From Fodinibius salicampi (GTDB lineage Bacteria > Bacteroidota > Rhodothermia > Balneolales > Balneolaceae), in assembly GCF_039545095.1 (NCBI RefSeq), contig NZ_BAABRS010000001.1, positions 1,550,001 to 1,614,000 of the forward strand: a stretch of DNA of 64,000 nucleotides. The letters are read 5' to 3'. The first letter of the stretch is position 1, and every line of letters starts with the position of its first letter. Positions 14,792 to 39,370 of this stretch are shown here, piece by piece. Made by a program: the position numbers and the translations under genes. The notes below the pieces were generated by a model that was given only the letters and a program-made list of their open reading frames with translations, made no database searches and had not been told where the DNA came from.

Positions 14792-15196
14792 TTACTTATA
14801 AGTCACAGCCCGATTCCAGTGGAGGCCTATAAACAAAATTACTGCTCCTATTTCAAATAACCGCCCGACAATGGTGGCCGATGAGCCAATCACATCCAGA
14901 TAGGAAGCCACATTGATGAGAATGCCCAGATTTAATAATGCAACCATTACCAGCGCCAGCATGGGATTCCCTCTCGATGGTCTTATCAAGTAGCGCGGCA
15001 ATATCCAGTAGGCGGTTCCCATAGTAAGCTGAATTATCCACCCAAAAATGCTGATTTCTATATGAATTGAAAGCAGACTCCACATTCCGGCAAATGCCGG
15101 ATAGGCTTTGCTAACCAGAATTAAAGCGCCGATGGAAAATCCCACAAGCATATAAATCAACGATGCTTTTATCATCCAGCGACTCGGTATTGGCAT
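14792..15196 (-). CDS. Small oxidase-subunit-I-like membrane protein (paralogue A)
   Basis: A 134-residue protein with four predicted helices. The motif HIEISIFGWIIQLTMGTAYW resembles helices of haem-copper oxidase subunit I and NnrS-like proteins, where a helix-borne His binds haem, but the protein is far too short to be an oxidase. The gene at 15250-15702 encodes a similar protein with HLLMVGWITQIIFGVSMW, so the two look like an ancient duplication and may form a heterodimer. The gap between them is 53 bp. The function is unknown. Confidence 0.65.
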   Translation of the reverse strand: MPIPSRWMIKASLIYMLVGFSIGALILVSKAYPAFAGMWSLLSIHIEISIFGWIIQLTMGTAYWILPRYLIRPSRGNPMLALVMVALLNLGILINVASYLDVIGSSATIVGRLFEIGAVILFIGLHWNRAVTYK

Positions 15197-15249: not shown

Positions 15250-15702
15250 TTAATTTTCGGATTTCTGTCGTTTCTTCTTTCGCTGCCTGCGACGCTGCTC
15301 TTTGGATTGAATTCGCGGCCAGAGTTCTATGGTATAAGTTGCAGCTGCTGCAACTTGGGCTATGGCCGAAACAACAATCAAAATATTCCAAATAGCTGCA
15401 TTTGATGTGTAGGACGCGGGCTCAGAAACCATGCGGCATACAAGTCCAACATTTAACATGATATAGGTCAGCCATCCCCATTTTTGAGGCCAAAATCCTT
15501 CTTCTTTGGTTCGGCCGGGGAACATCCACATGGAGACGCCAAATATTATTTGTGTAATCCATCCAACCATCAGCAAGTGCCAGAAAAGGGGTGTTATTCC
15601 AGGAAAATTTAGCCATTTAAATTCGGTAGCTAACCCCAATAAGAGCGAGGCTAAAAAATAAAGGAGTCCCGTTTTAATAAATAAGCGTGCTAATCTTGGC
15701 AT
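15250..15702 (-). CDS. Small oxidase-subunit-I-like membrane protein (paralogue B)
   Basis: A 150-residue protein with four predicted helices and a strongly basic tail (QRRRQRKKKRQK) on the presumed cytoplasmic side. The central FWHLLMVGWITQIIFGVSMW aligns with the equivalent segment of the neighbouring 134-residue protein. The start overlaps the end of the DUF3565 gene by 13 bp, which indicates translational coupling. It is probably a haem-binding or scaffold membrane protein in the NO/respiration region; that role is inferred from context only. Confidence 0.65.
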   Translation of the reverse strand: MPRLARLFIKTGLLYFLASLLLGLATEFKWLNFPGITPLFWHLLMVGWITQIIFGVSMWMFPGRTKEEGFWPQKWGWLTYIMLNVGLVCRMVSEPASYTSNAAIWNILIVVSAIAQVAAAATYTIELWPRIQSKEQRRRQRKKKRQKSEN

Positions 15703-17023: not shown

Positions 17024-18268
17024 TCAATTTCTTGAACCGTTCAATCTCATCCAATACGTAGTCACGGCAATAATCGGAAGCAGAGCACCAAATGCCAAAG
17101 CATATAAAATCCATGGCCCGGAAAGCACATCTGGCCACAACCGTGTAGGTATAAGTAACGTTACCAATGTAATGAGAATAGCAACCCCAACAGCCTGATA
17201 ATATCTAATAGAAATGGGGGACTTTACCTGGATCCATCCTATTCCCATTAACGTAAGCCCTCCCAGCAATAAAATATGCAAATAGAACAGGCGTAATCCC
17301 GGATCGGACAGCCAGAATGAACTGGGTATTACTGAACTTACGAACTGCATTAATCCTTTTAAACTCAACAGGCAAATAGGCCAAATCCATATTCGGTGTT
17401 TCCAATTTCCAGATTTATATAATACCAGCAGCACTATTAATATTCCTATAGCCGCCAGTGCTCCCCCAATACGCGCCGTTATCAAAAGCGTAGAAGAAAG
17501 CAATGATTCGGATATTCCATATGGAAAAGTCAGCGGCGCCCCAATAGCTATACATCCTAAAGCCACGTGTGGAGGAATCGGCCAGTTTTTTTCGCTGATA
17601 TTCAGCTCCGAAATTAAAACAGCCAATAGTATCAATACAACCCAACCTTCAGTAAAAGCAGCAAGAAAGAAATGAGTCATACTCTTCATCAACAGGTGCG
17701 ACTGCGGAGCTATCTCCTGTATAACTGCCACTCCCCAGGCGCCCAGTGAGCAGATGGACAGCAGGAAGAGTGCTCCATCAAACCAAGGCAGACTATCATC
17801 CTCTTTTAAAGCGGAACGGCCTTTCCAGTATCCCCACATAAATCCATACCAGCTGAGCATTACCAAGCCTGAAAAGACCACGGAAAGCGGCATGGCAGCC
17901 GACCCCAAAGGTACAGGACGATAGCCATAGAATAAGAAAAAAGGATAAGCCAACAGGCCAAATAATAAAGTGGCGGCAATGGAATATTTCATCCATTTTA
18001 TTACCCTGACCTGGCTGTGAGTATCTAATTTTCCGACTATTTTCTGCATAATAATGTAAAAAGGCAATGGAACCGCCCAAGCAAAAAACATCAAATGCGA
18101 ATGAGCATGGCGAACATTGCCAAAGGATAATTCACCGGGCATCCATCCCAGCATTCCTAATCGATAGAAAAAGCCGGTAAGTCCCGCTAGCACAAAACAA
18201 GCCACTGATGCCTGCCATAGAAAGGAACCATTTTGCAATCTCACAGAACCGAAATTATGAAATCCCAT
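17024..18268 (-). CDS. Twelve-helix membrane protein, NnrS/oxidase-like
   Basis: A 414-residue integral membrane protein with about twelve helices. The conspicuous motif HAHSHLMFFAWAVPLPFYI (His54, 56, 58) and later His in SMTHFFLAAFTEGW and FYLHILLLGGLTLMGIG are possible haem or metal ligands. I cannot assign a named family; the His-bearing helices recall haem-copper oxidase subunit I and NnrS. The promoter carries a perfect inverted repeat TAAGATAAATCTTA 13 bp upstream of the start, part of the candidate regulon motif. Confidence 0.65.
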   Translation of the reverse strand: MGFHNFGSVRLQNGSFLWQASVACFVLAGLTGFFYRLGMLGWMPGELSFGNVRHAHSHLMFFAWAVPLPFYIIMQKIVGKLDTHSQVRVIKWMKYSIAATLLFGLLAYPFFLFYGYRPVPLGSAAMPLSVVFSGLVMLSWYGFMWGYWKGRSALKEDDSLPWFDGALFLLSICSLGAWGVAVIQEIAPQSHLLMKSMTHFFLAAFTEGWVVLILLAVLISELNISEKNWPIPPHVALGCIAIGAPLTFPYGISESLLSSTLLITARIGGALAAIGILIVLLVLYKSGNWKHRIWIWPICLLSLKGLMQFVSSVIPSSFWLSDPGLRLFYLHILLLGGLTLMGIGWIQVKSPISIRYYQAVGVAILITLVTLLIPTRLWPDVLSGPWILYALAFGALLPIIAVTTYWMRLNGSRN

Positions 18269-18390: not shown

Positions 18391-19242
18391 TTAGTATTGC
18401 GAGACACCTAGCTGATTATCAAATGTGTTGTAATTAACCTCATTAATACCTTGCTTCATCAAGCTGTCAATATTTGTTTGAAACATATCACAAAACATAT
18501 CTTCTGAGAGCATAGCCCTCGCTCCTTTTTTTGTAGCCCCCTCACCATGTATTTGTATATGGCCCAGACTCTGATAAATCCTCCAGGCTTTCCGTAACCT
18601 TTTCTTGCCAGCCTCTCTTTTGTTCTCCTTCCAATCAATATAGCCTCTTAAAAATAGAGCCTGATAGTTTGAATTGTCAGCTGACAGAACAGCATCTAAT
18701 AATTCCTTAGCTTCAGACATATTATTATCAAATATTGCAATTTTTGACAATTGCAAAGGAGCGCCAATCTCTTCGCGATTCAAATCTTTTGCATACCTAT
18801 ACTTTCTTTCAGCTCTCTCCATATCGAATAGCGGGTTATCGTCATCCGTACAGAAATATAGTTTCCCTAATTGCAACTGAGTACGCGGTACATTCTCCTG
18901 AATCTCTTCTAGTCGAAGCCAGTATTTTTCAGTCTGTTTGAATTTCCGTTGAAATAGATACATGTTTCCCAAATAGTATAATGCATCCGTATGTTCTCCA
19001 TCTCGTTTCAGTGCCTCTTTATAATGATATATAGCTTGTTCATAGTCTCCGGCCGTTCGACTTGCAGTAGCTTGTTGATAGTGAGACCAAAATTCTTTAC
19101 TTGCTTTCACTTCAACATTTTGTTCTTCCTTTATTGAATGAGCTTTTTGTAACTCTCCCTGTGAAATATACTTCCAAATACCAACAGATGAATACAGAAA
19201 TACCAATAAAGAAAAGGATAATATATGTGACCTTTTGACCAT
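18391..19242 (-). CDS. TPR-repeat periplasmic protein
   Basis: A 283-residue protein with a signal anchor (about residues 5-24) and several tetratricopeptide repeats: AGDYEQAIYHYKEALKRDGE, TDALYYLGNMYLFQRKFKQT, and NYQALFLRGYIDWKENKREA. The final third is a helical tail. TPR proteins commonly accompany CRTAC1-type proteins. It is the last gene of the multihaem-CRTAC1 operon, 37 bp after the CRTAC1 stop. It probably acts as a protein-binding scaffold in the envelope. Confidence 0.82.
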   Translation of the reverse strand: MVKRSHILSFSLLVFLYSSVGIWKYISQGELQKAHSIKEEQNVEVKASKEFWSHYQQATASRTAGDYEQAIYHYKEALKRDGEHTDALYYLGNMYLFQRKFKQTEKYWLRLEEIQENVPRTQLQLGKLYFCTDDDNPLFDMERAERKYRYAKDLNREEIGAPLQLSKIAIFDNNMSEAKELLDAVLSADNSNYQALFLRGYIDWKENKREAGKKRLRKAWRIYQSLGHIQIHGEGATKKGARAMLSEDMFCDMFQTNIDSLMKQGINEVNYNTFDNQLGVSQY

Positions 19243-19279
19243 CCTCTGATATAATTATAAGTTATAATTCTGCCAAGAA

Positions 19280-21067
19280 TTAGTTTAGATTTCGTAACGC
19301 TGAATCACCCTCTTGGATATGCAGTCGCTGGTTTGCCTTCACATTCGTGAATACCTGTTCTTCTCCGCTCGGCCAGCGGATAAAAAGGGTATCGGCCTGA
19401 CACGCTCTTCCAAGTCCAAATTGCTGTATTAACGTATTTTGTGAGAGATAGGAAGGCTGCATTCCAACCTGTCTTATTTGCACCTCATCATCCACAGTCA
19501 GTCTTATCTTTGTCCCAATTGCAGATTTATTACTTTCCGTACCTTCCAGCTTCAATTGCAGCCATTGATTGGCGGTTTGGGTTTGGTTTTCCAGCAAAAC
19601 AGCAGGAGCATCATGATTCACAATAAAAAGATCCTGTTGCCCATCGTTATTATAATCGCCATAAGCACCACCACGCCCTACCCACTCTTCTTTGAAGTAC
19701 GCTCCCGCTAGTTCAGATATATCGTAGAAGCCATCTTCATTGTTTCGATTCCAGAATATCCGATCTTCCATAGGAATCATATCTTGGGAGTTCTCTGTTT
19801 TTTGCATTGTGTGTCCGTTAACTACGAAAAGGTCCTCTCTTCCGTCATTATTTATATCCACAAACGAAGTTGCCCAACCTACATAATCAGTCGATAATTG
19901 TCCCATCCCAAATCGATCGGCTTCATCTCGAAATTCAAGTGTCCCCCTGGTATTGACCATATTGCTATAAAAAGCATTTTCTTCGGCAACCCAGTGGGTA
20001 ACAAAAAGATCGTGATCCTGATCTCCATTCCAGTCACCAATGGCAACCCCCATTGAACCCCTATAATCAGCTACCTTAGCTTGGTAACTGATATTTATAA
20101 AAGTTCCATCACCCAAATTCTGATATAGCATATTGTCCGTTACATCATTTGCTATATACAGATCCGGCAAATTATTATTGGTCAAATCCACCCACGCTAC
20201 CGCAAGACTTTTACCCTCCAGATTAGCAACACCCGCTTCTTTGGACACTTCTGAAAAGGTTCCATCCCCATTATTTTTATATAACAGATTGGAAGCAGGT
20301 TCAAAGACTGATGGATTAATAGAAGGCGGCTCCTGCAGGTTTCGGATTTCCTCATCATCAGGAATTTCAAAATATATTATGTATCCACCAATATAGAGAT
20401 CAACGAAGCCGTCGCTATTATAATCCGCCCATGCCGCTCCCGACCAAAATCCCTCTTTCTCTGCAAGTCCCGCCTCAGCTGTAACTTCTGTAAAGGTACC
20501 ATTACCATTATTATGAAAGAGTCTGTTTTGACCATAAGTGGTAATGAGACAATCAATATACCCATCATTATCATAATCGGCCCAGGCGGTACCAATACCA
20601 TATACTGGAATTTTCAAGCCTGCCTGTTCTGTTACATCTGTAAAAGAACCGTCACCATTATTTTGATATAGTACAGGAGTTGCGGGTGAATTATTGAATG
20701 CTTCATGACCCATATCTGTCGGTCCGGCAAAATTCACCACAAACAGATCTTCATATCCGTCATTATTAAAATCAATCCACGCTACACCAGATCCCATATC
20801 TTCCGTAATCCTTGAGCCACGCTCTTTATAAAAATGCTTGAACTCAATTCCTTTTTGTGCCGTGACATTTTCAAAACGAATTTGCGGAACGTCTTCCGGA
20901 ACTTTCCTATCCAGCCGTGCTGTTCGTCCTTCTACCTCGTCACCGGGTATATATTTTGCGGTATCCTGCTTCTGCCAAATAAAAGAAGCTGCAAGAATAG
21001 AAATTAATGCTATAAATACGGATGCGCTGAGTATTCTTTTTTTCCGGCGGCTTAAATTAGAAAACAT
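19280..21067 (-). CDS. CRTAC1-type FG-GAP/ASPIC-UnbV protein
   Basis: A 595-residue exported protein. An N-terminal signal anchor (about 11-30) leads into FENVTAQKGIEFKHFY, a typical CRTAC1 start. A series of FG-GAP/VCBS repeats follows (DFNNDGYEDLFVVN, DYDNDGYIDCLITT, DYNSDGFVDLYIGG, DLTNNNLPDLYIAN, DWNGDQDHDLFVTH, DINNDGREDLFVVN, DYNNDGQQDLFIVN), consistent with a calcium-binding propeller. The ASPIC/UnbV domain is at about 515-580 (IRWPSGEEQVF). The start is 12 bp from the multihaem cytochrome stop. The role in electron transfer is not known; linkage suggests a partner of the cytochrome. Confidence 0.92.
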   Translation of the reverse strand: MFSNLSRRKKRILSASVFIALISILAASFIWQKQDTAKYIPGDEVEGRTARLDRKVPEDVPQIRFENVTAQKGIEFKHFYKERGSRITEDMGSGVAWIDFNNDGYEDLFVVNFAGPTDMGHEAFNNSPATPVLYQNNGDGSFTDVTEQAGLKIPVYGIGTAWADYDNDGYIDCLITTYGQNRLFHNNGNGTFTEVTAEAGLAEKEGFWSGAAWADYNSDGFVDLYIGGYIIYFEIPDDEEIRNLQEPPSINPSVFEPASNLLYKNNGDGTFSEVSKEAGVANLEGKSLAVAWVDLTNNNLPDLYIANDVTDNMLYQNLGDGTFINISYQAKVADYRGSMGVAIGDWNGDQDHDLFVTHWVAEENAFYSNMVNTRGTLEFRDEADRFGMGQLSTDYVGWATSFVDINNDGREDLFVVNGHTMQKTENSQDMIPMEDRIFWNRNNEDGFYDISELAGAYFKEEWVGRGGAYGDYNNDGQQDLFIVNHDAPAVLLENQTQTANQWLQLKLEGTESNKSAIGTKIRLTVDDEVQIRQVGMQPSYLSQNTLIQQFGLGRACQADTLFIRWPSGEEQVFTNVKANQRLHIQEGDSALRNLN

Positions 21068-21079
21068 GATGTTTTTTTC

Positions 21080-23077
21080 TTATCGAGACACTTTTACCTG
21101 ATGAGTATCACTGGAAACGGTAGTTATAGGAGCCGTTTCGTCATCTACTTCTGTAAATACTTCATTCATCAAAAACTGGTTGAATTTTCGATACTGCAGC
21201 TTCGCTGTTATATAAATGTCTGTAATATTTTCTTCCGTTATATCCACAGCAAAACGAGCATAATCGGTTTTCCCGGGGTAGAGAGCCCGGCTGTACCGTA
21301 CGCCTACAAGCTCCCAAAGATTGTGGCGGTCAATTAAATTTCCATATTGATCGACCGGCTCGGCTTTAAATATGAAACTACCGGATTCTATAAAATGATC
21401 TTCATCCAGCGTTCCTGATGAAAATAATATATTGCCATCCTGGTCTTTAGCTATTATTTCTATCCATGACTGCATCATATCCAATGGACCTGTTGGAAAT
21501 TCATGGCCTGCTTTTTTGTTAGTAATAATGACATCCATATTTAATTCCTCGCCCACCTGGATACTATCTGGGCTGATAATTGAGATCGGAATGGTCTCAC
21601 CTTTAACCCACTTATCCTGTATTTCCGGAATTTCATAATCTCCCCGAAGCCATTCCTCAATCAGCTCTACATGCTTATCTGCATTAGGCAAGTCCAGTAG
21701 CTTGGGCACATATTGATTTCCACCCAAAAACCGATGACTACGGTGTTTTTTATCATCAGCTGTCCTGTTTATATCAAGCGCATCCCCACGAGCCGGATCT
21801 TCTGAAGCTGTGAGCGGCATGTGGCAATCCCTGCATTCCAGTGTGGCAAATGCGTTCTCCTCATCATTCCAGTGACTCTTCCGCCATTGGTCATATTGAT
21901 TCTGTAACTGAACCCACCCCACATTATTAATATCTTCGTCTATATATTGCTTATGACAGGAACCACAATACTCAGATGTTTTATAAAATGTCCGGCTGTA
22001 ACTATCTACATGTTTTTCTGGATAGGCCCTTATCAGGAAATCGCTAATAAGCTTAGCTATCTTTCCATCCTTAAGCTCAAATATATATCGCTCCGGAGAG
22101 ATAATGGCATAGTCTGCATTTCCCTGAACATCAGCCTCTGTCATAGTATGGCAAGAGACGCAGGATATCCCCTCATCAAGTCCGATATTATTAGTCAGTT
22201 TATCGGAATAGAGATTCGCAGAACCAGCAAATAATCCAATGGGATCGTGGCAACCAGCGCAATACCGGCTGGCCACTGCTCCCTTTTGTTTGCCCATATT
22301 TTCCTGAATTTTCCTAAAAAATGGATCCGAAGCAGCGTAGCGATGGGCACTAGTCTCCCATTCTTCTTTTATTTCAGAATGACAACCTGATGTACCACAC
22401 GATTCCGATCCTCCGAGCCGTTCTGCGTCAATAAGATCTCCGCTTTCTGTACGGGCAAGGCTTGGCGCAAAGGGACTCTCAGCCCCCTCATGGTATGGAT
22501 AATCATTGGGTAGTTTAACCGTATCAGAATAAGAAGATGAGTAAGCAAACATTAGTAGTCCTACTACCGCAAACTGATAGAGCAACAAATAGGCACTGTT
22601 AAAACTAAATTTCTTTTGGCCTAACTTTCTTTTTTGAATCGTTTCGCTCTTATTTTCTGCTTTTGAATCCCGGAAGATAATCAACCCTACGTGAGGGATA
22701 ACCGAAGCGATGAGTACAAAGGTTGAGGTTAAATGTATTTTCTTCCAAACAGCTGTGATAGCCGACATGAATAACGCTTCATAAGTCAAAATCAAACCCG
22801 ATATTATGGCTACTGTTGTAGCGGCCATTGCTACATATCCCATAATCACGAATTCGTTGATGGGACGGTCTTTATATTCCAGCCAATGCTGATATTGATA
22901 CCACAGGTAAGGAAACAGAAATAGTAATCCCACAACTGTATGTAAAAGTACCATTAACTGATTGCCCACACTGAAAGGCAACAGATAAATAGAAAGACCT
23001 GTTAATATCTCAAATAAAAGAAAGCCAGATACCGTATAAAGAAGCGGCCGAACCCATTTGTTTCTTTTTGATGTCAT
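21080..23077 (-). CDS. Fusion of b561-like membrane domain and multihaem cytochrome c
   Basis: A 665-residue protein. Residues 12-180 hold five hydrophobic helices with paired His residues (His46, His115, His129), as in di-haem b561-like domains. The rest is periplasmic and carries CAGCH (273-277), CVSCH (306-310), CGSCH (371-375), CRDCH (415-419), plus an unusual CGTSGCH (227-233), a CX4CH motif. The layout resembles cytochrome c554-like decahaem relatives fused to a quinol-interacting domain, so it may pass electrons from quinol to the periplasm. It heads the operon with CRTAC1 and TPR genes. Confidence 0.85.
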   Translation of the reverse strand: MTSKRNKWVRPLLYTVSGFLLFEILTGLSIYLLPFSVGNQLMVLLHTVVGLLFLFPYLWYQYQHWLEYKDRPINEFVIMGYVAMAATTVAIISGLILTYEALFMSAITAVWKKIHLTSTFVLIASVIPHVGLIIFRDSKAENKSETIQKRKLGQKKFSFNSAYLLLYQFAVVGLLMFAYSSSYSDTVKLPNDYPYHEGAESPFAPSLARTESGDLIDAERLGGSESCGTSGCHSEIKEEWETSAHRYAASDPFFRKIQENMGKQKGAVASRYCAGCHDPIGLFAGSANLYSDKLTNNIGLDEGISCVSCHTMTEADVQGNADYAIISPERYIFELKDGKIAKLISDFLIRAYPEKHVDSYSRTFYKTSEYCGSCHKQYIDEDINNVGWVQLQNQYDQWRKSHWNDEENAFATLECRDCHMPLTASEDPARGDALDINRTADDKKHRSHRFLGGNQYVPKLLDLPNADKHVELIEEWLRGDYEIPEIQDKWVKGETIPISIISPDSIQVGEELNMDVIITNKKAGHEFPTGPLDMMQSWIEIIAKDQDGNILFSSGTLDEDHFIESGSFIFKAEPVDQYGNLIDRHNLWELVGVRYSRALYPGKTDYARFAVDITEENITDIYITAKLQYRKFNQFLMNEVFTEVDDETAPITTVSSDTHQVKVSR

Positions 23078-23119: not shown

Positions 23120-23135
23120 AAGATAAAATACTCTT
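23120..23135. promoter_or_regulatory. Candidate NsrR-like operator in divergent promoter
   Basis: AAGATAAAATACTCTT, identical over 16 bases to the inverted site upstream of the nos cytochrome gene. It lies 43-58 bp upstream of the multihaem gene and 133 bp upstream of tnaA, so it could act on either. Confidence 0.5.
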
Positions 23136-23267: not shown

Positions 23268-24662
23268 ATGAAACTAAATGAATTTGAATCCGATACTATT
23301 ATTGAACCCTTTCGTATTCGGTCTGTTGAACCTATTCGATTCACTTCTATGGAGGAGCGGAAGCGACTTCTTAAGGAGGCCGGGTATAACCCCTTCTTGC
23401 TCAAAGCGGATGACGTGCTGATAGATCTGCTAACGGATAGCGGTACAGGGGCTATGTCCTCCAAACAGTGGTCGGGCATAATCGCCAGTGATGAATCTTA
23501 TGCAGGCTCCTCTTCTTTTTACAAACTGGAATCTGCCGTACAGGATATAACAGGATACAAACACCTCATCCCTACTCATCAGGGACGGGCAGCTGAAAAT
23601 ATCTTCTTCACAACTATTGCTCAGGAGGGTGACGTCATTCCTAGTAACACTCACTTTGACACCACTCGTGCTCATGTAGAGCATGCTGGTGCCGAAGCAC
23701 GTGACTTAGTGATAGCAGAGGGACATCAACCCGAAAGCCGGCATCCGTTTAAGGGGAATATGGATCTGGATAAACTGGAAAAAACCATTCATGATGTTGG
23801 AATCGATAATATTCCCGTAATTATGATTACGGTAACCAATAATTCTGGGGGCGGCCAGCCGGTAAGCATGGAAAATATCCGATCCGTCTCTGAGATTGCC
23901 CGAAAAAACGATATCCCTTTTTTCATTGACGCCTGCCGGTTTGCCGAAAATGCCTGGTTCATCAAAACCCGCGAAGAAGGATTTTCTGGTAAAAGCCCTA
24001 TTGACATTGCACAAGAGATGTTCAGCTATGCTGACGGTTGTACTATGAGCGCCAAAAAAGACGGCATGGCCAATATCGGGGGATTCCTGGCACTGAACAG
24101 TGATGAACTGGCTTCTGAATGCCGAAACCTGGAGATCCTGACCGAGGGTTTCCCTACCTATGGCGGGATGGCCGGCTACGATATGGAAGCCGTTGCCCAA
24201 GGTCTCTATGAAGCCCTCGACAGCGACTATCTGCGCTATCGAATCCGTTCCATTGCTTATCTGGGAGATAAACTTACTGATGCAGGCATTCCCATTGTAC
24301 AGCCTACCGGGGGACATGCGGTCTATTTGGATGCCAAGAAGATATTACCTCATATTCCGCCTACCCAATATCCTGCATGGTCTTTTAACAATGCCCTCTA
24401 CCTGTTAGGAGGCGTACGCGGAGTAGAAATTGGAACCGTTATGTTTGGACAACACCCCGACGGTAGCGAAAAGCCTGCAGCTATGGAGCTGGTCCGTTTG
24501 GCTTTTCCACGCAGAGTTTATACGCAAAGCCATGTTGATTATTTGGCTGAAGTAATCATTTCAGCATATGAGCAACGCAAAAAACTCAGCGGCTACGAGA
24601 TTGTTTCAGGCCCGGACGTGCTACGGCACTTTTCGGCCCGGCTGAATCCGCTTGAGGAATAA
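23268..24662 (+). CDS. tnaA: Tryptophanase (tryptophan indole-lyase)
   Basis: A 464-residue PLP enzyme of the beta-eliminating lyase family. The PLP lysine is Lys264 in MSAKKDGM. Substrate-specific positions separate it from tyrosine phenol-lyase: FDTT after Phe130 has Asp131 where TPL has Thr, and VRGVEIG has Ile where TPL has the tyrosine-binding Arg. These match tryptophanase, which splits L-tryptophan into indole, pyruvate and ammonia. It is divergent from the multihaem operon. No TnaC-like leader peptide or tnaB permease is visible nearby. Confidence 0.85.
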   Translation: MKLNEFESDTIIEPFRIRSVEPIRFTSMEERKRLLKEAGYNPFLLKADDVLIDLLTDSGTGAMSSKQWSGIIASDESYAGSSSFYKLESAVQDITGYKHLIPTHQGRAAENIFFTTIAQEGDVIPSNTHFDTTRAHVEHAGAEARDLVIAEGHQPESRHPFKGNMDLDKLEKTIHDVGIDNIPVIMITVTNNSGGGQPVSMENIRSVSEIARKNDIPFFIDACRFAENAWFIKTREEGFSGKSPIDIAQEMFSYADGCTMSAKKDGMANIGGFLALNSDELASECRNLEILTEGFPTYGGMAGYDMEAVAQGLYEALDSDYLRYRIRSIAYLGDKLTDAGIPIVQPTGGHAVYLDAKKILPHIPPTQYPAWSFNNALYLLGGVRGVEIGTVMFGQHPDGSEKPAAMELVRLAFPRRVYTQSHVDYLAEVIISAYEQRKKLSGYEIVSGPDVLRHFSARLNPLEE

Positions 24663-25195: not shown

Positions 25196-26602
<1,407 letters not shown>

Positions 26603-28560: not shown

Positions 28561-29280
28561 TCAATTCAAACGCTTCTCAAGTTCCAAAGCTTTTGGAAAG
28601 AGAATATTGTTTTCAAGGTGTACATGCTTGTGAAGGTCTTTTTCGAATCCTTCCAAATTTTCAAATAGGATTCGGTATGTGGTACATGCGTCTTCCGGTG
28701 GAGTAAAGTCATTACTCAGTTCACGGATTTTTGCAATAGCCGCTCCAGCATCGTCATGCTCATCTTCCATCATTGATACAGGATTAGCAGCACTGATATA
28801 ATCCGGCTGTTCAGGGGTTTCATTATTCTTCTCAGCCTCTACCATCTCTTTGATATAGGGAAATAGGAGTTCCTCTTCCTTATCAAGATGATTAATCATT
28901 TCGCTGTGAAGTTTGGTAAACTCATAATAGATTTCTGTGAGTTCAGGATGGCGCTCCCCGTGTACTTTAGCTACTTTTTTTGCATAAGCACCTATTTCCG
29001 GAAGCTTCTTACGAGAAAACTGATGGTGGTTATTCACAATATAATCCACCAGGAAGTCCAGCGACCACTGGTCATAATTATCTTCTTTCCCGTTTTTATC
29101 AGTCAGTCCTTGTAAAGCAGTGTGTACTTTAGTTGGATCAACATTCTTTTTCTCACATGCTTCTTCTATGGTCAGATTTCCACCACAGCAAAAATCCAGT
29201 CCATAGTTTCTAAAAACTTGTGCTGCTCTATAATCATCAGTTACAACTTGTCCAATCGTTCGTTCTTTTACCGTATTCAT
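28561..29280 (-). CDS. ric: Ric-type di-iron iron-sulfur cluster repair protein
   Basis: A 239-residue Ric/YtfE/ScdA protein. The DUF542 N-terminus keeps FCCGG (30-34). The haemerythrin-like domain has all expected ligands: the His85/His86 pair, His131 and Glu135 in NHLDKEEELLFP, His175 in MEDEHDDAG, and His219/Glu223 in HKHVHLENNILFP. It repairs Fe-S clusters damaged by NO or peroxide. It has a candidate operator 45-65 bp upstream, and is followed after 36 bp by the unknown 604-residue gene. Confidence 0.95.
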   Translation of the reverse strand: MNTVKERTIGQVVTDDYRAAQVFRNYGLDFCCGGNLTIEEACEKKNVDPTKVHTALQGLTDKNGKEDNYDQWSLDFLVDYIVNNHHQFSRKKLPEIGAYAKKVAKVHGERHPELTEIYYEFTKLHSEMINHLDKEEELLFPYIKEMVEAEKNNETPEQPDYISAANPVSMMEDEHDDAGAAIAKIRELSNDFTPPEDACTTYRILFENLEGFEKDLHKHVHLENNILFPKALELEKRLN

Positions 29281-29324: not shown

Positions 29325-29345
29325 TTTAAGAGTATCTTATCTTAA
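29325..29345. promoter_or_regulatory. Candidate NsrR-like operator upstream of ric
   Basis: On the minus strand the site reads AAGATAAGATACTCTTAAA. It differs by one base in 16 from the site upstream of the nos cytochrome gene. The location, 45-65 bp upstream of the ric start, suits repression of a promoter. Confidence 0.5.
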
Positions 29346-38730: not shown

Positions 38731-38746
38731 AAGAGTATTTTATCTT
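38731..38746. promoter_or_regulatory. Candidate NsrR-like operator of the nos operon
   Basis: AAGAGTATTTTATCTT on the plus strand; on the transcribed strand AAGATAAAATACTCTTAAAAA. It lies 36-51 bp upstream of the first nos gene and is the best-conserved member of the motif set. Confidence 0.5.
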
Positions 38747-38917: not shown

Positions 38918-39370
38918 TTACTGCCAAACAAATTTCCCATCCGGTGTAATGCGCAAATCATTTTGTTTTCCCTTCTTGGACATATCTGCCAGACTGGTTG
39001 TTCTAAATACTTTCTCTATATCATCCCGGGTTTCCGCCCACATGCTATGCATGGGACAGGGTTTTTCACTCCCACATCCAGGGAGCCCCAATACACATTC
39101 CGTAAATATTTCAATCCCGTCAATTGCCACAACGATTTCTTGTAATGATATATCATCACTTGCTTTAGATAACCTTACTCCTCCCTTGGGTCCCTTCATA
39201 GACTCCAAAAGGCCCGCGGCCGTCAGCTCTTGAAGAATTTTCGTAAGAAAATGGAATGAGATATCAAGCTTTTCGCTTAACTTCTTTATGGAAATGTATT
39301 TTTCATTGGAACTCGAAGCCAGATACAATGTGGCCCTTAAGCCATATTCGCAAGATTTTGACAGTAGCAT
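38918..39370 (-). CDS. Rrf2-family regulator, NsrR/IscR-like
   Basis: A 150-residue regulator. The winged helix at the N-terminus (LSKSCEYGLRATLYLAS, then IKKLSEKLDISFHFLTKILQ and GPKGGVRLSK) is typical of Rrf2. Three cysteines, Cys92, Cys99 and Cys105 (CVLGLPGCGSEKPC), could hold an Fe-S cluster; the spacing C-X6-C-X5-C is close to that of NsrR and IscR. NsrR proteins lose repression when NO attacks the cluster. It is directly upstream of the nos operon, and its own promoter has a matching operator, pointing to autoregulation. Confidence 0.85.
   Translation of the reverse strand: MLLSKSCEYGLRATLYLASSSNEKYISIKKLSEKLDISFHFLTKILQELTAAGLLESMKGPKGGVRLSKASDDISLQEIVVAIDGIEIFTECVLGLPGCGSEKPCPMHSMWAETRDDIEKVFRTTSLADMSKKGKQNDLRITPDGKFVWQ

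Follow-up and report, generated by a model that had tools for sequence, protein, structure and literature searches.

In a 64,000-nucleotide stretch of the genome of Fodinibius salicampi (Balneolaceae; contig NZ_BAABRS010000001.1, positions 1,550,001 to 1,614,000; hereinafter the window), three consecutive open reading frames (ORFs) on the minus strand, separated by gaps of 12 and 37 bp, code for a b/c-type cytochrome, an FG-GAP/UnbV_ASPIC propeller protein of the cartilage acidic protein 1 (CRTAC1) type and a tetratricopeptide repeat (TPR) protein (Table 1). An earlier note on this DNA had described a tight operon of these genes, with a five-helix b-type domain fused to a part bearing four CXXCH motifs and one CX4CH motif, and the ORF coordinates, Pfam matches and models agree with it in each of these respects. 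The propeller protein belongs to the CRTAC1/UnbV_ASPIC family (PF07593; 69.3 bits against a gathering threshold of 23.4, E 2.7e-19) and also matches FG-GAP_3 at 5.9e-44 and the structure of Cartilage acidic protein 1 (9etn) at 6.6e-26. The N-terminus of the TPR protein is weakly hydrophobic by eye, under the threshold of the hydrophobic-segment scan. With moderate confidence, we propose that the operon codes for a quinol-linked b/c pentahaem cytochrome complex, with the propeller and TPR proteins as partners, that belongs to an Rrf2-type nitric oxide (NO)/denitrification regulon.

Table 1. Features of the three-gene operon and of its candidate regulon (window coordinates)
Feature	Position	Strand	Remark
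b/c cytochrome, 665 aa	21080..23077	-	membrane domain, residues ~6-182, and periplasmic pentahaem domain, ~217-661
Five-helix membrane domain of the cytochrome	22532..23062	-	invariant His 46, 64 (helix 2), 115, 129 (helix 4); two b haems predicted
CX4CH haem motif CGTSGCH, residues 227-233	22379..22399	-	
CXXCH motif CAGCH, residues 273-277	22247..22261	-	
CXXCH motif CVSCH, residues 306-310	22148..22162	-	
CXXCH motif CGSCH, residues 371-375	21953..21967	-	followed by invariant Lys376
CXXCH motif CRDCH, residues 415-419	21821..21835	-	followed by invariant Met420
FG-GAP/UnbV_ASPIC (CRTAC1-type) propeller protein, 595 aa	19280..21067	-	one N-terminal hydrophobic anchor
TPR protein, 283 aa	18391..19242	-	Pfam TPR families
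Operator-like site AAGAGTATTTTATCTT	23120..23135	-	43-58 bp before the cytochrome start
Site identical to AAGAGTATTTTATCTT	38731..38746	+	36-51 bp upstream of the first nos gene
nos operon	cyt c 38695-38231, NosZ 38192-36213		
AAGAGTATTTTATCTT with one mismatch	29328..29343	+	48-63 bp upstream of the gene for RIC (ScdA/YtfE-type)
RIC-type di-iron protein (ScdA_N + hemerythrin)	28561..29280	-	proposed co-regulated gene
Rrf2-family regulator, Cys92, Cys99, Cys105 (CX6CX5C)	38918..39370	-	candidate regulator of the AAGAGTATTTTATCTT sites

Architecture of the cytochrome and its haem sites

Conservation was read from 110 aligned rows, comprising 30 loci of the host class (the window included) and 80 further relatives, the best of at least 548. 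These represent 107 different loci, as the contigs of L010, L016 and L018 appear a second time as L053, L056 and L058, repeats that remain in the 110 rows and were dropped from the tree. A scan of the named genomes with the single protein gave no relatives; an alignment-based scan then found the at least 548, by retrieval patterns that rested on the second and fourth haem motifs and not on the first. One locus of the host's own genome (L002; G000:C1:169221-173213) was left out of the alignment: it codes for a 558-aa paralogue of the periplasmic part with five CXXCH motifs and no CX4CH, and adjoins a cytochrome c gene.

As judged from these rows and from structure models, a five-helix domain with four invariant histidines continues into a periplasmic pentahaem domain. 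The cytochrome has five hydrophobic segments (residues 12-30, 35-55, 75-100, 114-138 and 159-177), and its AlphaFold2 model (pLDDT 85.9, pTM 0.84) displays five long helices; the membrane domain modelled alone reaches a pLDDT of 96.1. The N-terminus is short and basic, helices 4 and 5 are separated by a stretch rich in Lys and Arg, and the helices number five, so that the positive-inside rule would place the C-terminal part in the periplasm. This part (residues 217-661) resembles a pentahaem cytochrome of T. tepidum, c552 (5ze8), with a VIA Z of 23.3 over 343 residues, the next row standing at 11.1; the same structure is the top Foldseek match of the model (E 8e-12) and is retrieved by the cytochrome profile A1 at 1.8e-10. 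With this fold, and with five c-haem motifs in 110/110 rows, the protein can be assigned to the pentahaem c552-type fold. The two proteins further have in common a C-terminal beta domain with a PTG stretch. However, the protein in the window differs from T. tepidum c552 and the PHC family in being fused to a five-helix membrane domain, in having CX4CH in place of CX2CH as the first motif, and in its fixed CRTAC1 and TPR gene partners. Among the family models, Cytochrome_C554 (PF13435) matches residues 231-311 above its gathering threshold (26.4 against 20.8 bits).

The earlier note had called the membrane domain quinol-type, a view favored by its resemblance to di-haem b subunits and by the four invariant histidines. 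The first three VIA rows are hydrogenase-1 cytochrome b (Z 11.6 and 11.1) and FdnI (10.3), followed by an unrelated channel (9.6) and cytochrome b6 (9.3). Like these quinone-reactive subunits, the domain has four membrane histidines, the candidate ligands His 46, 64, 115 and 129 being present in 110/110 rows, and its helical fold may be akin to theirs; it differs in having no sequence match to them, in carrying its histidines two on each of two helices and in being fused to a c-haem chain of its own. The positions of the four histidines, at either end of helices 2 and 4, most naturally suggest a pair of b haems spanning the membrane, and the cytochrome is thus predicted to carry seven haems. 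The logic of a quinol side joined to a multihaem periplasmic chain is also that of the NrfH-type quinol dehydrogenases, though the NapC/NirT/NrfH model (PF03264) remains under its cut-off here (14.6 of 24.1 bits), as does Ni_hydr_CYTB (14.3 of 30.1 bits). The same logic is found in CbcL, a quinol dehydrogenase that likewise has a multihaem c part. No kinship to haem-copper subunit I was seen, COX1 being absent among the matches of the cytochrome at E 0.1.

The first haem motif is CX4CH in 109/110 rows (106/107 without the doubled contigs), and the other four are invariant throughout. The single departure is a close relative (L007), in which CGSCH, of the CX2CH form, occupies this position. The earlier note had suggested that the CX4CH site might be unoccupied or might need dedicated or permissive haem attachment. 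We consider lack of occupancy unlikely, as the motif is invariant save in the one relative where an ordinary CX2CH replaces it. We found nothing to favor a dedicated extra haem lyase and rejected it too, since the genome has only two Cytochrom_C_asm matches, one in CcmF and the other in a 222-aa CcmC-like ORF, which one CcmE adjoins. This CcmE (L142:826-1227; G000:C1, beside 131466) has CPSKY, i.e., CXXXY, in place of the usual HXXXY motif. The CXXXY variant occurs in Desulfovibrio, whose cytochromes c3 also carry CX4CH; a Desulfovibrio-type CcmE variant coincides with a CX4CH haem motif in the host genome. The almost invariant natural CX4CH site offers material for the study of haem attachment.

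Gene partners and phyletic distribution

Within the host class, 67 of 244 genomes match the cytochrome at 1e-10. Eighteen of these, the host's own included, have a close relative (53-71% identity, or self), and the remainder have relatives of about 900 aa (~30% identity) or more distant paralogues. The ~900-aa form ends in TPR in 2/2 tested. The best 80 of the at least 548 relatives, nearly all from metagenome bins, span about a dozen phylum-level lineages, including Bacteroidota, Gemmatimonadota, Acidobacteriota, Planctomycetota, Verrucomicrobiota, KSB1 and Marinimicrobia, along with Krumholzibacteriota, Latescibacterota, Poribacteria, Chloroflexota, Myxococcota and Actinomycetota.

Across these phyla, the CRTAC1-type propeller and the TPR protein are the regular gene partners of the cytochrome. 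The CRTAC1 gene lies directly downstream in 75 of the 80 named-genome loci, so that rare adjacency, which the earlier note had considered along with poor conservation of the CX4CH as telling against the module, is no more borne out than the latter. Five loci were scored as without CRTAC1. Three of them stop at a contig end, and in a fourth (L085) the cytochrome ORF is split, with CRTAC1 and TPR after it, which leaves L128 as the sole locus truly without CRTAC1 despite room. In the 75, CRTAC1 is fused to TPR in 40 and followed by a separate TPR gene in 25. No TPR was called in 10, seven of which stop at a contig end, while L055 has a TPR after a second CRTAC1 and L110 and L130 have none. The fusion of CRTAC1 to TPR is also seen within the host class (L044). 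There, the 14 wide loci of the three-gene type have CRTAC1 in 13 and TPR in 11 (one fused), the misses in L040, L042 and L043 being due at least partly to a longest-ORF rule that chose antisense frames; in the seven wide loci of the long type, CRTAC1 adjoins the cytochrome in four (L046, L047, L048 and L050) and L049 ends at the contig. The retention of the CX4CH in 109/110 rows together with the gene order indicates that neither the haem-motif set nor the operon is due to chance. As the TPR thus occurs free, fused to the propeller protein or fused to the longer cytochrome relative, which is the usual sign of a functional association, the three products probably work together.

The combination of cytochrome, CRTAC1 and TPR is undescribed in the papers searched, none of which joins UnbV/CRTAC1 with a multihaem cytochrome and TPR. 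UnbV domains are merely listed in the sections of PMC3174227 and PMC3909097 at hand. The nearest precedent, from PMC12758564, is a CRTAC1/ASPIC-UnbV gene of the same Pfam family beside hydrazine-synthase-like genes, which is also next to multihaem cytochrome genes; however, those clusters hold subunits resembling hydrazine synthase and not the b/c cytochrome of the present operon.

A shared candidate operator and nitrogen-oxide neighbors

Comparison of upstream regions brought out a common 16-mer, AAGAGTATTTTATCTT, of which there are exactly two exact copies in the 3.94-Mb genome, one before the cytochrome operon and the other before nos, as against ~0.007 expected under a simple composition model. 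Four more sites are found with one mismatch, where the same model expects 0.28, making six sites with at most one mismatch against ~0.29. Among these one-mismatch sites, one precedes the RIC gene and another an operon coding for an ArsP-like permease, a second CRTAC1, NirK and a SUMF1/EgtB-like protein (L189:9682-15182; G000:C1:1540181-1545681). In the window itself, there are five matches with at most three mismatches, compared with 1.4 in shuffles, only 1/100 of which reached five. The shared operator with nos is a direct and testable link of the module to nitrogen-oxide metabolism and suggests a function for the uncharacterised bacterial CRTAC1 proteins.

The earlier note had proposed a candidate NsrR-like operator without stating its position; the one identified here is at 23120-23135. 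The operator holds up as one of Rrf2 type shared with nos, but the identity of the regulator as NsrR does not: the Rrf2 protein encoded beside nos lies well within the Rrf2 superfamily (116.8 of 73.3 bits) and reaches only 58.2 bits against the NCBIfam cut-off of 182 for the NsrR equivalog. Like NsrR, it has three cysteines (C92, C99 and C105) as candidate cluster ligands. This protein probably regulates the AAGAGTATTTTATCTT sites. In each of the three nos loci that were read (the window, G034 and G067), the site lies between the nos operon and an Rrf2 gene immediately upstream of it. Ahead of the rrf2 gene, a possible further site differs at four positions by eye, and we make no claim for it.

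Across ten genomes of the host family, a slightly degenerate form of the pattern gives 56 sites, as against 21 for a reversed control. Nine of the ten (all but G016) have a site no more than about 1.5 kb upstream of nosZ, and six of the eight with the module (all but G046 and G069) have one ahead of the cytochrome gene. The degenerate pattern was derived from the upstream regions of seven or eight of these genomes, and the cytochrome sites are therefore not independent support; the nosZ sites of the relatives are.

The NirK of the permease-CRTAC1-NirK operon carries a C-terminal CXXCH, and the last protein has sub-threshold EgtB/SenA matches and is SUMF1-like by eye; a Crp/Fnr-type gene is on the other side of the AAGAGTATTTTATCTT site. 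A second CRTAC1 gene of the genome is tied in this way to a nitrogen-oxide enzyme.

Of the eight host-family genomes with the module, six have nitrogen-oxide or NO-related genes no farther than about 6 kb from it. The window has RIC along with Pfam matches to a bacterial globin and, below threshold, to cytochrome c'. In the relatives, they include NirK and azurin at 2.2-2.7 kb, with a second NirK ~10 kb away on the other side (G016), a NirK-like protein (203 of 296 bits) with SUMF1, SCO, azurin and RIC (G067), RIC by eye (G034), NrfHA (G046), and Rrf2 with an eNOR-type oxidase (G069). In the remaining two (G061 and G070), whose contigs are short (17 and 8 kb), no such gene was recognised near the module. 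Similar associations recur in Acidobacteriota: in L099, Rrf2 is divergent from RIC and the cytochrome follows RIC after 45 bp, with CRTAC1-TPR next; L091 has Rrf2 and then the cytochrome; and L077 and L127 have RIC near the module. Overall, 3/50 loci (of the 80) have RIC within the 18-kb stretch where chance would give 0.12 (Poisson P 3e-4); these three were already known when the test was made. At the level of genomes, enrichment is strong: NosZ is over the cut-off in 17/18 genomes with a close cytochrome relative and in 101/226 others, and NirK in 11/18 and 34/226, respectively.

Proposed function and competing explanations

We posit that the operon products form a periplasm-facing electron-transfer complex of the inner membrane. 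The membrane domain would hold two b haems and exchange electrons with (mena)quinol, and these might run via the five c haems to a periplasmic nitrogen-oxide enzyme or to its cytochrome c/cupredoxin donor, or alternatively end on a ligand at one of the c haems. The propeller and TPR proteins might function as docking or scaffold parts. A small regulon marked by AAGAGTATTTTATCTT would unite the operon with nos, the RIC gene and the CRTAC1-NirK operon; as the regulon is shared with these genes, the most likely role of the operon is in denitrification or in defence against NO. The earlier note had left the terminal acceptor unknown. It need not be regarded as wholly so, since both regulation and neighbors point to nitrogen-oxide/NO metabolism.

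Several observations weigh against this proposal. For the membrane domain, a VIA Z near 11 is not decisive for a helical bundle, Foldseek gives no match below 0.001 and the sequence profile of the domain finds no PDB relative; the VIA lists are without CbcL or other families and thus exclude nothing. With regard to the operator, the genome has nine sites with at most two mismatches against 14 for the reversed control, so that only the close matches count. Even among the six close sites, two (C1:751566 and C2:359108, both with one mismatch) precede genes with no visible link, namely a transporter-like and a small secreted-protein-like gene by eye. Outside the family, the operator is not convincing, with 13/85 upstream regions reaching P<=0.05, the majority from the Rhodothermus-like group and two counted twice. 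Counted by genus (by hand in the case of NosZ), the co-occurrence with nitrogen-oxide genes has no significance (NosZ 7/8 vs 47/81, NirK 4/8 vs 18/81, P 0.10 each). Furthermore, 101 of the 118 host-class genomes with NosZ over the cut-off are without a close relative of the cytochrome; accordingly, it is not needed for nitrous oxide reduction.

The first alternative, which we view as unlikely, is that of a general respiratory or redox-balance module, passing electrons, for example, from quinol to a periplasmic cytochrome c in oxygen-limited cells, that was recruited to the NO regulon only in the host family. This would account for the very wide distribution, which takes in lineages not examined for denitrification genes, and for the alternative complex III genes adjoining the module in L099, L100, L113 and L127 (Pfam names ActD in L100; the others are recognised from a gene cluster in common). 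However, RIC or Rrf2 genes are next to the module in Acidobacteriota as well, and a NarK-like transporter (L113) and a type II dimethyl sulfoxide (DMSO)-reductase-like set (L131), all below cut-offs, are beside it elsewhere.

A second, decidedly unlikely, alternative is that the pentahaem domain is itself catalytic, reducing NO (or nitrite/hydroxylamine) with electrons from quinol at a c haem without a distal protein ligand, which would make the complex an NO reductase or detoxifier outside the haem-copper superfamily. The invariant candidate distal histidines (His 245, 356, 448 and 525, in 110/110 rows) indeed number four for five haems; however, His445 and His585 (97/110 each over all rows) are lost mainly in the TPR-fused clade and are nearly invariant in the three-gene clade, and hence the fifth haem may be six-coordinate there. 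In PMC11976967, the sPHC and lPHC relatives of cable bacteria are grouped as potentially catalytic, the PHC family being listed among cytochromes with at least one predicted pentacoordinate haem.

The complement of NO reductases bears on the same alternative. The host genome has NirK and NosZ, and since no more than two of its COX1-family proteins pass the Pfam cut-off and both keep the H-x3-Y tyrosine of oxidases, no NO reductase of the haem-copper superfamily was recognised in it. Nine of the 18 module genomes were covered in an oxidase survey, with classes assigned by motif and by eye: five more were likewise without a recognised NO reductase, whereas three (G069, G166 and G222) have an eNOR-type oxidase, in which Gln replaces the tyrosine (a criterion given in PMC8756737). 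In the C-type-like oxidases L213 (G067) and L216 (G016), the following helix was taken, with less certainty, to retain a tyrosine. The gap leaves room for the module as an NO-consuming step, which is only a lead since genomes that combine nir and nosZ, whether or not they have nor, form a category of their own in PMC12569097. The eNOR-type subunit of G069 (GHHSQQ; L036:16252-17979), 4 kb downstream of the module, is easily misnamed, as its sole NCBIfam match at 1e-10 is CtaD far under the cut-off. A bolder form of the idea, to which we give little credence, would have a quinol-linked NO-consuming complex of non-haem-copper type bridge NirK and NosZ wherever no NO reductase is recognisable, with CRTAC1 propellers as general scaffolds for periplasmic nitrogen-oxide complexes; such propellers are, in addition to the present operon, found in the host NirK operon and, elsewhere, beside genes resembling those of hydrazine synthase.

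Finally, an extracellular electron transfer complex sending electrons outward, as proposed for the ExtKL-type pentahaem cytochromes of Geobacter, appears highly improbable: the T. tepidum c552 fold is likened to small cable-bacteria pentahaem cytochromes grouped with ExtKL (PMC11976967) and there is a weak NCBIfam ExtKL match, but the ExtKL equivalog (NF040886; 25.4 of 250 bits) and OmcA/MtrC decahaem (TIGR03507; 25.4 of 209.3 bits) models remain far under their cut-offs, a porin-cytochrome gene set was not noticed in the inspected loci, without a dedicated search, and the shared operator and neighbors point to nitrogen oxides.

Further genes around the module may be recorded here. The DMSO-reductase-like set of L131 (L131:784-7692), a Verrucomicrobiota bin, is divergent from the module and consists of an alpha, a beta and a haem-b protein, none of which reaches its cut-off. 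In the window, a 414-aa membrane protein (17024-18268) has no Pfam, NCBIfam or PDB match and is NnrS-like by eye only; relatives of it are seen in L037 and, by eye, in L190 and L192. Two short proteins (14792-15196 and 15250-15702) have sub-threshold COX1 matches; phmmer finds pairs resembling them close to nitrogen-oxide genes in L035 (G067) and L037 (G034), and another such pair is visible by eye in L190 (G016). On the upstream side of the operon, two related ORFs of 464 and 461 aa (23268-24662 and 25196-26581) look tryptophanase-like by eye, and a relative of these occurs near the cytochrome module in L036.

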